DNA from: Amphiplicatus metriothermophilus | GTDB taxonomy: Bacteria > Pseudomonadota > Alphaproteobacteria > Caulobacterales > Parvularculaceae | Length of the DNA stretch: 64,000 nt | Direction of reading: 5' to 3' | Assembly: GCF_900199215.1 (NCBI RefSeq) | Contig: NZ_FZQA01000004.1 | Coordinates: 124,001 to 188,000, forward strand | Shown here: positions 1,890-41,145 of the stretch, piece by piece | Layout: each line of letters begins with the position of its first letter | How positions within the stretch are numbered: position 1 is the first letter of the stretch | Notes under the pieces: generated by a model | What the model saw: the letters and a program-made list of their open reading frames with translations, nothing else | Database searches by the model: none | Told to the model about the DNA's origin: nothing | Position numbers and translations under genes: made by a program

Positions 1890-1914
1890 AAAAAGCGGGG
1901 ATAGTTATCCCCGC
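1890..1914 (-). terminator. Rho-independent terminator of aspS
   Basis: On the minus strand a perfect 9-base-pair stem (GCGGGGATA with TATCCCCGC, loop of 2 bases, 1895-1914) is followed directly by TTTTT (1890-1894). It sits about 210 bases downstream of the aspS stop with no gene in between. Stem strength plus U-tract make this a convincing intrinsic terminator for leftward transcription. Confidence 0.75.
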
Positions 1915-2019
1915 CCTTCGGACCGGCTCGATAATGGGCGCATGAACGGACCCGCGTCGTTTCCCATCCCCGCTTCGCCCGGCCGCGACGGCCGCGCCGG
2001 CGCGCCGCCGCGGCGGGCG

Positions 2020-36904: not shown

Positions 36905-37771
36905 TTACGGGATCCGGCGGCCGTCGTCTTTGCGCATGAAGTCGAGGCGCGTCGGATCGAGCGCCTGCATCGCGGCGAGCGCGAGCGGGGCGAGATCGGC
37001 GCCGAACGCGCCCGGCGCCGGACGCTTCGCGGCGAGAGCGGCGTGCGCCGTACGGGCGCGCGACGGCTCGGGCTCGGCGGCGGCCGTCACTGCGAGCTCG
37101 CGCACCGAAGGCCCGTCGCGCAGGGCGGCGGGCGGCGGCTTCGCGGCCGTTCGGGACGCGTTCATCGAGCGCTCGATAGAGGCCAGCACCTCGCGCACGG
37201 TCCGCGCCCGGCCCGCCTCGTCGAAGAACACCGGCCGGTTGGCCGCCGCCGCCTTGGGCAGCAGCTCGGCCGCTTTGTCTTCGGGCCGGGCCGCGAGCAA
37301 CTTCGCCGCCCCCCCGAGGCCCAGAAAATGCGCCGCATAGACTTCCGTCGCGCCGGCCGGGCGGCCGAGACGGCGCTCGAGCGCGAGTCGGTTTTCCTCG
37401 GCGAGCTCGCCGGCGAGCGCGGCGGCCTTCGCCGGATCGAAGCGCAGGTCGAGAATCGCCTTGCGCCGGGCGGGATCCGCCACCGTCAGCCGGCCGTTCG
37501 GCGCTTCGACGATCTCGCCGGCCGCAGCCTCAAGCCCGTGCCGGGGGCCGTATTTCTTCACGGCCGCAAGCCAGGTCTGCTCGATGAACTGAAAGAGGCC
37601 GGCCGCGGAAGAGGCGCGCGCCGTCGCTCGCGGGTCGAGCGCGCTTTCCCGGCGGGCCATGTTGTAGAGAAGCTCGAAGCCCGCCCCGGTCGCCTCGCTC
37701 GCGCTCCTGAGCGCGGCGGCGACGGCGGACGAGCCGCCCGCGGCGAAAGCGGAGATGGGATCGGCGGTCAT
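36905..37771 (-). CDS. Lytic transglycosylase SLT domain protein
   Basis: Probable peptidoglycan-cleaving enzyme, 288 residues. The SLT fold begins near residue 28: FELLYNMARRESALDPRATARASSAAGLFQFIEQTW, where the Glu of ARRESALDP is the predicted acid catalyst and SSAAGLFQFI the substrate-binding strand (cited here in short pieces). EVYAAHFLGLGGAAKLL near residue 140 matches the family's third motif. No signal peptide is visible, so it may be exported by another route or act in lysis or with the flagellum. ATG 37771 opens the domain. It ends 32 bases from the convergent pentapeptide gene. Confidence 0.82.
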   Translation of the reverse strand: MTADPISAFAAGGSSAVAAALRSASEATGAGFELLYNMARRESALDPRATARASSAAGLFQFIEQTWLAAVKKYGPRHGLEAAAGEIVEAPNGRLTVADPARRKAILDLRFDPAKAAALAGELAEENRLALERRLGRPAGATEVYAAHFLGLGGAAKLLAARPEDKAAELLPKAAAANRPVFFDEAGRARTVREVLASIERSMNASRTAAKPPPAALRDGPSVRELAVTAAAEPEPSRARTAHAALAAKRPAPGAFGADLAPLALAAMQALDPTRLDFMRKDDGRRIP

Positions 37772-37823: not shown

Positions 37824-38969
37824 CTAAACGCCGAAGCGCGCCGCGCCGAAGGCCGCAAGCTCGGGCGCGGCGCGCCGGCGCAGCAGCCAGTCAGCCAGAA
37901 TCCCGGCCGTCGCCGGCGCCAGCAGCACCCCGTTGCGATAGTGGCCGAGCGCGTAAACGAGGCCCGGCGGGCCGGCGGGCGCCGGGCCCAGAACCGGCGC
38001 GCCGTCCGGCGTGCCGGGACGGGCGCCCGCCCAGCGCTCGGTTTCGGACAGGGCCGCCGTCATGGGCGCGACCCGGCCGGCGGCGGCGCGCAATCGATCG
38101 ATTCCGGCCGCCGTCGGCTCGAGGCTCGCGTCATGGGGGATCTCCGTCGCGCCGACGACGAGCCGCCCGTCCGACTTGGGGCAGAGATAGGCGCCCGGCG
38201 CGCGGATCACCCGCCGGACGCGCCCTTCAGGCTCGGCCAGGGCGAGCGCCTCGCCTTTCACGGGAAAGACCGGCGGGCGCGCCGGGCCGGCGTCGATCGC
38301 CGACGCGGCGGCCCCGGCGGCGAGCACGACGGCGCCGGCCTCGACCGCCCCGCCGTCCCTGAGCCGCACGACGAGGTTCGCGCCCGCCGGCTCGATCGCG
38401 GCCGCCTCGCCGGCGAGGAAGGTCCCGCCGCGGCGGACGACGGCCTCGCGCAGCGCGGCCAGCAGCCGCCGGGCGTCCACCTGGCCGTCCGCCGGGGCGT
38501 GCAGCGCGGCGAGGACGTATTCGGAAAGGGCCGGCTCGAGGGCGCGCGCCTCAGCGCCGGAGAGAAGCTCGACCGAGGCGCCGCGCGCGCGCAGCGCCTC
38601 GGCGGCGCCGGCGAGCGCGCGGGCCTCGGTCTCGTCGAAGGCGACGCCCAGAATGCCGAACGGGCGATAGTCGATGCGCGCGCCGCTTTCTTCCTCGAGG
38701 GCCGGCGCGAAGTCCCGCCAGGCCGCCAGACTCTGCGCGCTGAAGGCGTAAAGCGCCTCGCCGAGCGCGCCGGCGCCGCGCTCGAAGGACGGCGCGAGCA
38801 TGCCCGCCGAGGCGGCGCTCGCCGAAGGCTTTCCGGCGTCGACGACGAGCGGCGCGGCGCCTTCGCGCGCCAGGCGCCAGGCGATCGCGAGGCCGATCAC
38901 CCCGCCCCCGACGATTGCGACGTCACGCCCGCTCACCGGCCCGCCTTTCCTTTCCGTTCCGTCTTTCAT
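37824..38969 (-). CDS. thiO: Glycine oxidase ThiO
   Basis: FAD enzyme that oxidises glycine to iminoglycine for thiazole synthesis by ThiG, 381 residues. The FAD loop VAIVGGGVIGLAIAWRLA is at about 17-34, ASAASAGMLAPSFE follows as in the family, and the C-terminal GHYRNGVLLAPATAGILADWLL binds flavin and carries the conserved Arg. An alternative would be another D-amino-acid dehydrogenase; the GHYRNGVLLAP block favours ThiO. It is not beside thiSG, which lie near 26-27 kb. A holin-like gene is 48 bases upstream on the same strand. Confidence 0.87.
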   Translation of the reverse strand: MKDGTERKGGPVSGRDVAIVGGGVIGLAIAWRLAREGAAPLVVDAGKPSASAASAGMLAPSFERGAGALGEALYAFSAQSLAAWRDFAPALEEESGARIDYRPFGILGVAFDETEARALAGAAEALRARGASVELLSGAEARALEPALSEYVLAALHAPADGQVDARRLLAALREAVVRRGGTFLAGEAAAIEPAGANLVVRLRDGGAVEAGAVVLAAGAAASAIDAGPARPPVFPVKGEALALAEPEGRVRRVIRAPGAYLCPKSDGRLVVGATEIPHDASLEPTAAGIDRLRAAAGRVAPMTAALSETERWAGARPGTPDGAPVLGPAPAGPPGLVYALGHYRNGVLLAPATAGILADWLLRRRAAPELAAFGAARFGV

Positions 38970-39017: not shown

Positions 39018-39569
39018 TCACGCCGCACCGTCCGGCGAGCGCTCCCGGGAGAGCAGCCGCGTCTTCTCCTTCGAGCCCGCCGAGGAGCCGAAATAATAGT
39101 TCACCACCGCCGCGGTCATGGTGGCGAGCGCGCCGAGCATGATCGAAAACTCGGTCTCCGCGCCCGGCGGCAGGCGCTGCGCGATCATCGCGGCGAGCAC
39201 GATGAAAAATCCGCCGATGATGAGCCCGCCCAGCGCCGCCGGCGCGCGGTCGCGCATGGCGCGTTCGCGGGCGCGCGCATCGGCGCGGTCGTCTGCGGCG
39301 ATGCGCGCTTCCTCGACGGCGGCCGTCCGCAGCGCGGCGCGAAACTCAAGCTCGGCGCGGCGCAGCGCCGCGCGCTGCTCGGGCGAGGCGCGCTGCAGCG
39401 CCTTTTCGATGTCCGCTTCGCCCGCGTCCTTCTCGCCGAACAGGGCTTTGGCGATGGTCTCGACCGCCGCGCCGGCGAGCGGGCCGCCGAGCGCGCGCGC
39501 AAGCTCCGGCGCGGCGCCGGCGACGGCGCGTTTTAGGCGCCCGCGCGCTTTTTTCTTCTCTTCAGACAT
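39018..39569 (-). CDS. Holin of the gene-transfer-agent (3TM holin) type
   Basis: A 183-residue protein matching the pattern of PF11351, the three-membrane-segment holin named for its role in release of gene transfer agents in Rhodobacter. It has a basic start (MSEEKKKARGRLKRA), a weak segment at LARALGGPLAGAAVETIAKALFG, a long charged helical region with RRAELEFRAALR and DDRADARARERAMRDR, then hydrophobic segments LGGLIIGGFFIVLAAMIAQ and ALATMTAAVVNYYFGSSAGSKEK. It would make holes that release a muramidase. No GTA structural genes are nearby. ATG 39569 has GGAG upstream. Confidence 0.72.
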   Translation of the reverse strand: MSEEKKKARGRLKRAVAGAAPELARALGGPLAGAAVETIAKALFGEKDAGEADIEKALQRASPEQRAALRRAELEFRAALRTAAVEEARIAADDRADARARERAMRDRAPAALGGLIIGGFFIVLAAMIAQRLPPGAETEFSIMLGALATMTAAVVNYYFGSSAGSKEKTRLLSRERSPDGAA

Positions 39570-39939
39570 GGCTTCGACTCCGACACTGGCCTGGCGGGAC
39601 GAAGCGCCCGCCGACGCGAACAGTCTACGGCCGGCGCGAAAGGCGGGGATAACTATCCGCGAAACGGGGATAACCGTTCGCGAAAACGTGGATGAAAAGC
39701 CGCGCGGGCCGCACGCCGTCTTGCTTTCGCGCGGGCGCGCGTTCGCCTTTTCGTGGAAAAGTCTGGACCCGGCCTATCGGGGAAAACCCGTCCAAAATTC
39801 AATTTGCCTTTGCGCACGGATCAATTCAGAGTTGCGTTTGGTGATTCGGCGCGCCAATTCCCGCATCGCGCGCGCCGGAATCAATGAACGCTGAACGGAT
39901 CGGCCGCGACATCGTCATGTCTGAAACGCTTTTGGCTTT
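39570..39939. other. 370-base non-coding gap with GGGGATAAC motifs and a possible leader peptide
   Basis: No long gene is supported here. Near 39642-39690 there are two GGGGATAAC motifs and a CGTGGATGA, each two changes from the DnaA box TGTGGATAA. The first, with its flanks, shares 17 bases with the aspS terminator stem. At 39917-39943 a nine-codon frame (MSETLLAL) ends in ATGA that overlaps the start of the antiporter-like gene, so it may be a leader that couples translation; its own ribosome-binding site is weak. Confidence 0.35.
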
Positions 39940-41145
39940 ATGACGCTTGCGTTGACCGGTTTGATCGTTCTGGGCGTTTTTCTCGCGCTTTCGAAGACGC
40001 GCGCGCCGGCGGCGGCCGCCGAAGCGCCCGTGCTGCTGCTCGTGGTCGGGGCGGGCGTTTCGTTTCTGTACCGAGCATCCGGCCTGCCGGGCGCGCCCGC
40101 CGAATGGGTCGCGGCCGCCAGCGAGGCCGGCCTCGCCGCGCTCGTCTTCGCCTGCGCCGCGCAGGTGCGCGCCAGTCGCTTCGCGCGGCGCTGCCCGGCC
40201 TCGTTTCGGTTGACGGTCGGCGGCGCGCCGCTGTTTCTGGTGCTTTGCGCGCTGAGCGCCTTCGTGCTGCTGCCCGAGCTGTCCCTGCCCTCGGCGCTGC
40301 TCGTGGGCGCGATCCTGGCGCTCAACGGCGCGGCCTTCGACCGGCGCGCGGTCACCGGCGCGCCCGCGCCCGCCGCGGTGAAGGCGGCGGTGCGCAATGA
40401 AAGCGCGGCGAGCATCGCCTTCGGCGCCCCGGTCGCCGTGCTGATCGCCGGCTATGCGACCGCGCCGGGCGCCGGGCAGATCCCGCTCGAGCCGCTGCTC
40501 GAGGCGAGCCTCGGCGCGCTAGGCGGCTTCGCGCTCGGCGGCGCGGCGGGTCTTCTCGCCGCGCGCCTGCTCGAACGGGTGAACGGGGCGGGGGGCGAGC
40601 GGTCGGCGGTGGTCGCGGGCTTCGCCGCTTTCTTCGCCGCGGCCCTCTTCGGCGCGAACGCGGTCATCGCGGCTGGCGCGGCCGGCCTCGTGTGGAGCGA
40701 GGAGACCGCCGCCTCGGGCCCTGCGCGGCTGCGCCTGCGCCGGCGCGTGGAGCGGTTCGTTCCGCCTGCAGCCTATCTCCTTTTCGGCTTCACGCTCGCG
40801 CCGCGGGTTTTCGAGGCCGACCTTCTGTCGCTGCTGTTCGCCGTCGCGGCGGTGACGGCGCTGCGGGTCGGCCCGCGTCTTGCGATGCTGCAGTCCGCGC
40901 CGCTGCCGAAGGAGAGCCAGGTTTTTCTCGCCTGGTTCGGCGGCGCGCCGGGCGCGGCTTCGGCGCTGTTCGCGATGTCGCTTCTCGATGACGCGCTCAT
41001 TCTCGATCACGAGGCCGCGCTGACGGTGGTCGCGCTCGCCGTCGTCGCCGGCGTGATCGCCGCGCGCGCGAGCTCGCGCCCGCTCGCCAACGCCTTCCTG
41101 CGCGAGACTGCGGCGGCGAAGAAGCGCCGGCTGTTCGCGAGCTGA
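39940..41145 (+). CDS. Cation:proton antiporter-like membrane protein, key residues altered
   Basis: Multi-pass inner-membrane protein (401 residues, about twelve hydrophobic segments) that resembles the CPA1 Na+/H+ exchanger fold. The order of motifs is recognisable: LLVGAILALNGAAFDRRAV where exchangers have ATDPV; KAAVRNESAASIAFGAPV where they have EGESLFNDG; VFLAWFGGAPGAASALFAM where they have GGLRGAVSLALA. The Asp of the first motif is missing and the second is reduced to NE, so ion exchange is uncertain. Start ATG 39940 has no clear Shine-Dalgarno; a stop lies just upstream in frame. Confidence 0.7.
   Translation: MTLALTGLIVLGVFLALSKTRAPAAAAEAPVLLLVVGAGVSFLYRASGLPGAPAEWVAAASEAGLAALVFACAAQVRASRFARRCPASFRLTVGGAPLFLVLCALSAFVLLPELSLPSALLVGAILALNGAAFDRRAVTGAPAPAAVKAAVRNESAASIAFGAPVAVLIAGYATAPGAGQIPLEPLLEASLGALGGFALGGAAGLLAARLLERVNGAGGERSAVVAGFAAFFAAALFGANAVIAAGAAGLVWSEETAASGPARLRLRRRVERFVPPAAYLLFGFTLAPRVFEADLLSLLFAVAAVTALRVGPRLAMLQSAPLPKESQVFLAWFGGAPGAASALFAMSLLDDALILDHEAALTVVALAVVAGVIAARASSRPLANAFLRETAAAKKRRLFAS

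Follow-up and report, generated by a model that had tools for sequence, protein, structure and literature searches.

In Rhodobacter capsulatus, the lysis genes of the gene transfer agent (GTA) RcGTA are described as lying apart from the head-tail cluster and as being jointly activated by GafA (PMC6363796, PMC9638019, PMC3423380). According to the cited passages, the DNA-binding domain of GafA is DnaA-like and the protein binds the promoter of the lysis cassette (PMC6363796), its homologues are reported as DUF6456 proteins (PMC9638019), and rcc00171 is the RcGTA tail fibre gene (PMC9638019, PMC11409702). For Caulobacter, the corresponding passages state that IHF is needed for GTA synthesis (PMC11150451) and that lypABC is complete in only 4 of the 11 species predicted to encode GTAs (PMC13236601). 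The passages retrieved on Parvularcula and gene transfer agents name Parvularcula or Parvularculales with regard to the small terminase and in lists and trees, and not with regard to lysis.

The window analysed here is a stretch of 64,000 nucleotides from Amphiplicatus metriothermophilus (Caulobacterales, Parvularculaceae). A preliminary description had proposed that it contains a solitary holin gene of the GTA type, between thiO and an antiporter-like gene and with no capsid or tail gene near, which might be the lysis part of a GTA encoded elsewhere. The open reading frames and Pfam searches bear out this setting (Table 1): no capsid or tail gene adjoins the holin-like gene in the window, and the same-strand lytic transglycosylase gene said to lie two genes downstream encodes an SLT protein. 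The coordinates of the SLT gene use a predicted start codon, the listed open reading frame beginning at a TTG at 37858. thiO has the same orientation as the holin-like gene and begins 48 bp past it; the two are probably co-transcribed. Despite its kept synteny, the antiporter-like gene is not considered to belong to the system. An Rfam search of the window gave no match.

Table 1. Positions of the holin-like gene, its neighbours and the promoter features in the window
Feature	Position	Strand	Remarks and basis
phrog_1544 holin-like gene	39018..39569	-	183 aa; ATG at 39569, stop at 39018; ORF and PHROGs
thiO-like FAD oxidase gene	37824..38969	-	DAO domain; PF01266, 1.9e-69; synteny
SLT lytic transglycosylase gene	36905..37771	-	PF01464, 4e-5; phrog_4067, 1e-35
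Na/H-antiporter-like gene, divergent neighbour	39940..41145	+	PF00999, 2.3e-15; synteny conserved
Promoter feature upstream of the holin-like gene	39637..39654	-	comparison of holin and GTA promoters
GTTATCCCC box 1, DnaA-box-like	39645..39653	-	box search
GTTATCCCC box 2	39666..39674	-	box search
Candidate -10 element TAGACT	39622..39627	-	putative; alignment of 25 own-genome box promoters
Further copy of the promoter box	1904..1912	+	convergent with aspS; belongs to the wider set of box promoters

In an AlphaFold2 model, the holin-like protein has two predicted transmembrane helices (residues 109–130 and 138–161), which form a C-terminal hairpin preceded by a long helix (residues 63–105); the mean pLDDT is 67.6, and only the first helix of the hairpin passes the hydropathy cut-off. 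By its length and this model, the protein appears to agree with the small size and the one to three transmembrane helices of holins. Among the PHROGs it matched phrog_1544, a family of 'unknown function', over most of the length of the profile (E=9.9e-22, residues 11–171 of 182, profile positions 6–191 of 200). Pfam gave nothing above the cut-off and NCBIfam a sole match at E=0.27, while a Foldseek comparison with viral models reached a best E of 1.5e-3, with nothing below 0.001. A literature search for phrog_1544 together with holin found none.

The gene had been named a PF11351-type (GTA_holin_3TM) holin, the type that rcc00556 presumably represents by the naming of Pfam and of the preliminary description. 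This label is wrong, because PF11351 did not match the protein even at E<=10, nor any other part of the genome, though the model does match in 4 of 61 relatives, and because profile–profile comparison (hhalign) with four PF11351 members gave a probability under 1%; PF11351 membership was accordingly dropped. A PF11351 holin would have the same supposed role, and one phage protein (L124, the holin of phage DSL-LC04) matches phrog_1544 (7.6e-9), phrog_3427 'holin' (1.9e-8) and PF11351 (6.2e-7) at once. The link through this one bridging phage protein is weak. In view of the negative searches and the profile comparison, we find it scarcely credible that the gene is a PF11351 holin.

Within the class, 66 of 385 genomes, the source genome among them, encode a phrog_1544-type protein. 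Compared directly, the window protein gave two weak matches to phage records and none to viral contigs, so two distant alphaproteobacterial members were needed as bridges, which led to 61 and 137 phage records. In nine of 12 records picked for diversity from these, the homologue lies directly beside a cell-wall hydrolase gene: an annotated endolysin, lysozyme, GH108, M15 peptidase or amidase in eight, and a Pfam Amidase_2 protein in the ninth. The other three have, respectively, a DUF5675 neighbour, an M15 gene four genes on and structural genes alongside, and in two of the 12 the homologue itself is annotated as 'holin'. We also took 20 alphaproteobacterial regions (19 genomes) outside Parvularculaceae from the best matches among the 66 genomes. 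An open reading frame adjoining the member encodes a Pfam cell-wall hydrolase in 12 of them, namely Hydrolase_2 (L097, L104–L106, L109, L113 and L114), GH108 (L099 and L102), GH24 (L101 and L103) or M15 (L111). In the remaining eight, one or two neighbouring open reading frames were tested and gave no hydrolase domain above the cut-off, the neighbour in L098 having a weak pesticin match only. Whereas the member sits beside a cell-wall hydrolase gene in these nine phage records and 12 regions, the window has only the SLT gene, two genes off. Taken together, the phage and alphaproteobacterial contexts, L124 and the helix hairpin indicate with good probability that phrog_1544 is a family of holins, with pore formation as its presumed activity, and in this respect the preliminary description, which took the gene for a holin, is supported. 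For evidence drawn from sequence, the support for the family and its contexts is strong.

Four of the alphaproteobacterial regions have GTA-like genes about 5–8 kb upstream of the member and on the same strand, with 25–49% identity to the GTA of the source genome: L097 and L104 have capsid, portal and gp6, L105 has capsid and gp6, and L106, where the region starts at that gene, has only gp6. In these regions, Hydrolase_2 and phrog_1544 form a lysis cassette (L104 8257–9218, L105 7600–8618, L106 8075–9041 and L097), which comes after a short GTA-like or domesticated-prophage cluster, and no further GTA-like open reading frame was recognised past it in L104–L106. The GC content of L104–L106 is 0.42, and the L104 cluster contains an EamA transporter gene.

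A direct search of 61 genomes found orthologues with 52–71% identity in 28, the source genome included; all are among the 37 Parvularculaceae members, and none of the 24 genomes from other families of the order has one. Profile A2 was built from 26 of the 28 (L016 and L025 were left out). By profile search, 47 of the 62 family genomes have the gene: 45 show a single match, while G443 and G446 show two partial matches each. Applied to named genomes, the same profile found 42 loci, 35 of them titled Parvularculaceae, Parvularcula or Marinicaulis and seven only Alphaproteobacteria; alignment A3 joins the window protein to 28 of these loci, 29 rows in all. Among 20 fetched relatives, 19 have thiO as a neighbour, 17 the divergent antiporter-like gene and 16 both, while the SLT gene is nearby in 12 and RNR in 13. 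Selection was estimated over 21 pairs from seven chosen orthologues (dN/dS 0.13–0.40), and an alignment of 26 holin-like sequences has 36 invariant columns. To judge from these sequences, this is a vertically kept host gene under purifying selection and no stray fragment.

These data bear on two further readings. The gene might be a leftover of a prophage without present function, as its family is one of phages and no structural phage gene adjoins it in the window; the single match in 45 of the 47 genomes, the neighbours kept on both sides in 16 of 20 relatives, the dN/dS values and the invariant columns all speak against this, and we regard it, already largely refuted by conservation, as highly improbable. 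The protein might otherwise have another role in the membrane, for example in a thiO operon or in the envelope, and merely share ancestry with phage holins. Such a role would suit the almost constant presence of thiO alongside and the low confidence of the AlphaFold2 model, but G013 (L044) keeps the holin with neither thiO nor SLT found adjoining, and the gene carries the GTA-type promoter element described below, so that we consider it improbable.

The supposition that a GTA structural cluster lies elsewhere in the genome was confirmed. GTA_TIM was found on contig C4 (1.1e-150), a contig other than that of the holin. Around it, terminase, portal, protease, capsid, head-tail, tail, baseplate-hub and gp15 open reading frames were recognised by order and sequence, and Pfam confirmed capsid, portal, terminase and baseplate-hub domains; the cluster is apparently complete. 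Across the 62 family genomes, 41 have both the holin and GTA_TIM, six the holin alone, seven GTA_TIM alone and eight neither. Presence of the two is associated (Fisher p=0.0027; p=0.019 when permuted within genera), with p-values that are indicative only, because the genomes are related. Other codings of presence gave p from 0.0002 to 0.033, the latter with five partial GTA_TIM matches counted as no GTA. In G017 (L280) and G036 (L279), both without GTA_TIM, thiO adjoins the antiporter gene and the holin is missing.

Several observations count against a strict bond between the two. The within-genus p rises to 0.07 with only the 43 genomes of at least 90% completeness. The holin occurs without GTA_TIM in G016, G025, G027, G446, G449 and G460, full-length in G449 and G460, and GTA_TIM is found without the holin in seven genomes; in genus g7, none of six genomes has the holin and three have GTA_TIM. 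In G007 (L284, contig C4 of that genome), the box array and residues 23–145 of terL are followed directly by gp15 from residue 509, and the holin is intact; the GTA cluster there seems to have collapsed internally, by deletion or assembly error. Several of the counter-example genomes are incomplete or fragmented. The holin of G027 (L282) is truncated and the G446 copy is split over contigs, and in G443 the holin is truncated or split and GTA_TIM is represented by its last 60 positions only; all three cases may be due to assembly breaks.

In many relatives, TTATCC repeats, some with a 12-bp period, lie upstream of the holin gene, and the same box is found ahead of the GTA cluster. We call these boxes DnaA-box-like by comparison with the DnaA box consensus. 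In the source genome, the holin and GTA promoters have 18 identical nucleotides, and GTTATCCCCGCC has three copies in 144 kb of fetched DNA, one at each of these two promoters and one at window position 1904. The stretch in common is 22 nt in G004 and 19 nt in G006, where the box is of another type (with GTTCGATAGATATCGAAC), while both promoters of G019 and G011 again have TATCGAAC. Over 21 genomes, the best common stretch of holin and GTA promoters was longer within a genome (11.6) than between genomes (9.5), and 0 of 20,000 permutations reached as high (p=5e-5); this test is independent of the regular expression for the box, and its p-value is indicative since the genomes are related. The two promoters are more alike within than between genomes because the box type switches in step.

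By regular expression, the box was found in 22 of 38 holin promoters (150 bp; shuffles mean 1.1, maximum 6), in 18 of 21 GTA upstream regions (420 bp; shuffles mean 1.1, maximum 4) and in 2 of 52 control promoters, counts that are descriptive because the expression was written after looking at the promoters. Against a common control stand the 16 holin promoters that lack the box and three genomes (G033, G030 and G442) with a box at the GTA and none at the holin; G022, G455 and G457 have it at neither, whereas in G034 both promoters carry it. At the level of sequence, the holin-like gene appears to have its transcriptional control in common with the cluster, and the evidence for its link to the GTA is good. 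The proposal that it may be the lysis part of a remote GTA is supported by the cluster and by the co-varying element of the two promoters; the PF11351 label is not supported.

The box set of the source genome is wider than the GTA. There are 31 exact GTTATCCCC sites versus three for a reversed control, and about 25 promoter-like sites were chosen by eye from 30 of the 31 (the C17 site was left out), 14 of the 25 having a TA...T hexamer. Many sites face gene ends with only short open reading frames there. The breadth of the set counts against the reading of particle release favoured below. Pfam recognised, behind boxes, a tail-fibre-type gene with DUF2793 and Peptidase_S74 domains (rcc00171 is a DUF2793 protein too) as well as dGTPase-like and S58 peptidase genes, and ligA, ubiH and gabD in this genome and serS, queA and uppP in G004 were recognised by eye. 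The idea that all box promoters belong to GTA genes was dropped, since most drive or face other genes. A 12-bp tandem pattern gave 27 matches in G004, which we grouped into 15 promoters, and none in the source genome, G002 or G006. When the genes flanking the box loci of the source genome (30), G004 (15) and G007 (at least 17 regions, again by our own grouping) were compared, only the GTA cluster and the holin were common to all three among the matches listed, against a chance expectation of about 0.003 promoters if 1,500 promoter regions are assumed. Genome pairs have in common valS, rpsI, serS, queA or uppP sites, plus a small number of weak matches, and a laxer comparison of the source genome with G004 alone also paired L225 with L189 and, weakly, L210 with L188.

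The dispersed box promoters (window 1904–1940, + strand, and own-genome loci L199–L223) have a consensus of about AAAACGGGGATAGTTATCCCCGCCTTTCG...TATACTGGGCGC, and several lead directly into a short leaderless open reading frame and point towards the 3' end of a neighbouring host gene, identified by eye as aspS, valS, rpsI or folC. In 12 of these loci (L199, L201, L205, L207–L210, L213, L214, L219, L222 and L223), a stretch like AAxCAANNNNTTA, which in our judgement resembles an IHF site, lies about 20 bp before the box. At 15 places in G004 (L181–L195), tandem arrays of 12-bp units such as TTATCCCCCTAC are followed by a -10-like hexamer, and in G007 several contigs start or stop at such arrays.

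A domesticated holin with another use, such as programmed lysis, release of DNA or vesicles or a response to starvation, has to be weighed here; it would answer to a global regulator of about 15–25 promoters, with the GTA cluster merely a fellow member of the regulon. The breadth of the box set, the six genomes with a holin and no GTA_TIM, and the holin kept in G007 beside a collapsed cluster would all agree with this. However, only the GTA and the holin recur in the three box sets among the matches listed, the presence of the holin is associated with that of GTA_TIM, and the tail-fibre-type gene carries a box too. We regard such a use as unlikely, though a real possibility.

Candidates for the activator and the hydrolase were considered as well. 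A GafA-type regulator, which the preliminary description had suggested looking for, did not emerge: DUF6456 (GafA/GafZ-type), tried as a marker for it, gave no such gene in a search of the source genome, while the model does match in Caulobacter. The activator may have diverged or been split. A DnaA-like box would fit the DnaA-like domain of GafA, and the mutated GafY site of Caulobacter, as given in the source, differs in sequence from the box (PMC11150451). No wall-enzyme gene other than SLT was recognised behind a box in this genome, and SLT is possibly the putative endolysin partner; its product has no apparent signal peptide and no hydrophobic segment at the cut-off. The SLT gene is present in 37 of 61 genomes and does not strictly follow the holin, being found in families that lack the holin and absent from several holin-bearing genomes, a distribution that does not support it as a dedicated endolysin.

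A holin-like gene and a GTA cluster with a promoter element in common make the gene a good candidate for particle exit. We therefore favour, at somewhat better than an even chance, the reading that a recruited phage holin has come to act as the lysis holin for the Parvularculaceae GTA and releases its particles. A phage-derived holin of the phrog_1544 kind would have become a vertically inherited host gene of this family. One putative activator, whose DNA-binding domain may be DnaA-like as in GafA and GafY, would bind TTATCC-type boxes at both the GTA and the holin promoters, switch both on and presumably set their timing. The protein would insert its two-helix hairpin into the inner membrane and leave the long helical portion at its N-terminus on the cytoplasmic side. 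Once a threshold is reached, the holin would open the membrane, a murein hydrolase could reach the wall and the particles would escape.

More tentatively, and with less than even confidence, we suggest a regulon specific to the Parvularculaceae lineage, in which a fast-evolving activator with DnaA-like recognition acts on TTATCC/TATCGAAC boxes whose type changes from genome to genome; only the GTA cluster and the recruited phage holin would be constant members of it, and host promoters and short transcripts a shifting halo. If this is true, GTA release would have been re-invented a third way in Alphaproteobacteria, with a lysis part from a different phage family and by promoter capture. A candidate gene and a common promoter element make the lysis of GTA-bearing Caulobacterales beyond the studied Caulobacter testable in cultivable species. 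In addition, phrog_1544 is given a suggested function, and the promoter box might let GTA regulons be read from sequence.

The window protein resembles the phage members of phrog_1544 in its near full-length profile match and C-terminal hairpin layout, but it is encoded by a stand-alone host gene, whereas most of the phage members examined sit beside an endolysin-type gene. With the PF11351 GTA_holin_3TM and phrog_3427 holins it has in common a hydrophobic hairpin near the C-terminus and the bridge through L124, but no direct profile match. As with rcc00555 (endolysin) and rcc00556 (holin) of R. capsulatus, the holin-like gene lies apart from the GTA cluster; unlike that pair, it belongs to phrog_1544, has thiO and SLT as neighbours, lacks an adjoining proven endolysin and comes from a genome in which DUF6456 was not found. 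LypABC of Caulobacter crescentus likewise forms a separate locus for GTA release, but the source describes CARD-NLR-like proteins without a holin, whereas the Parvularculaceae candidate is holin-like.
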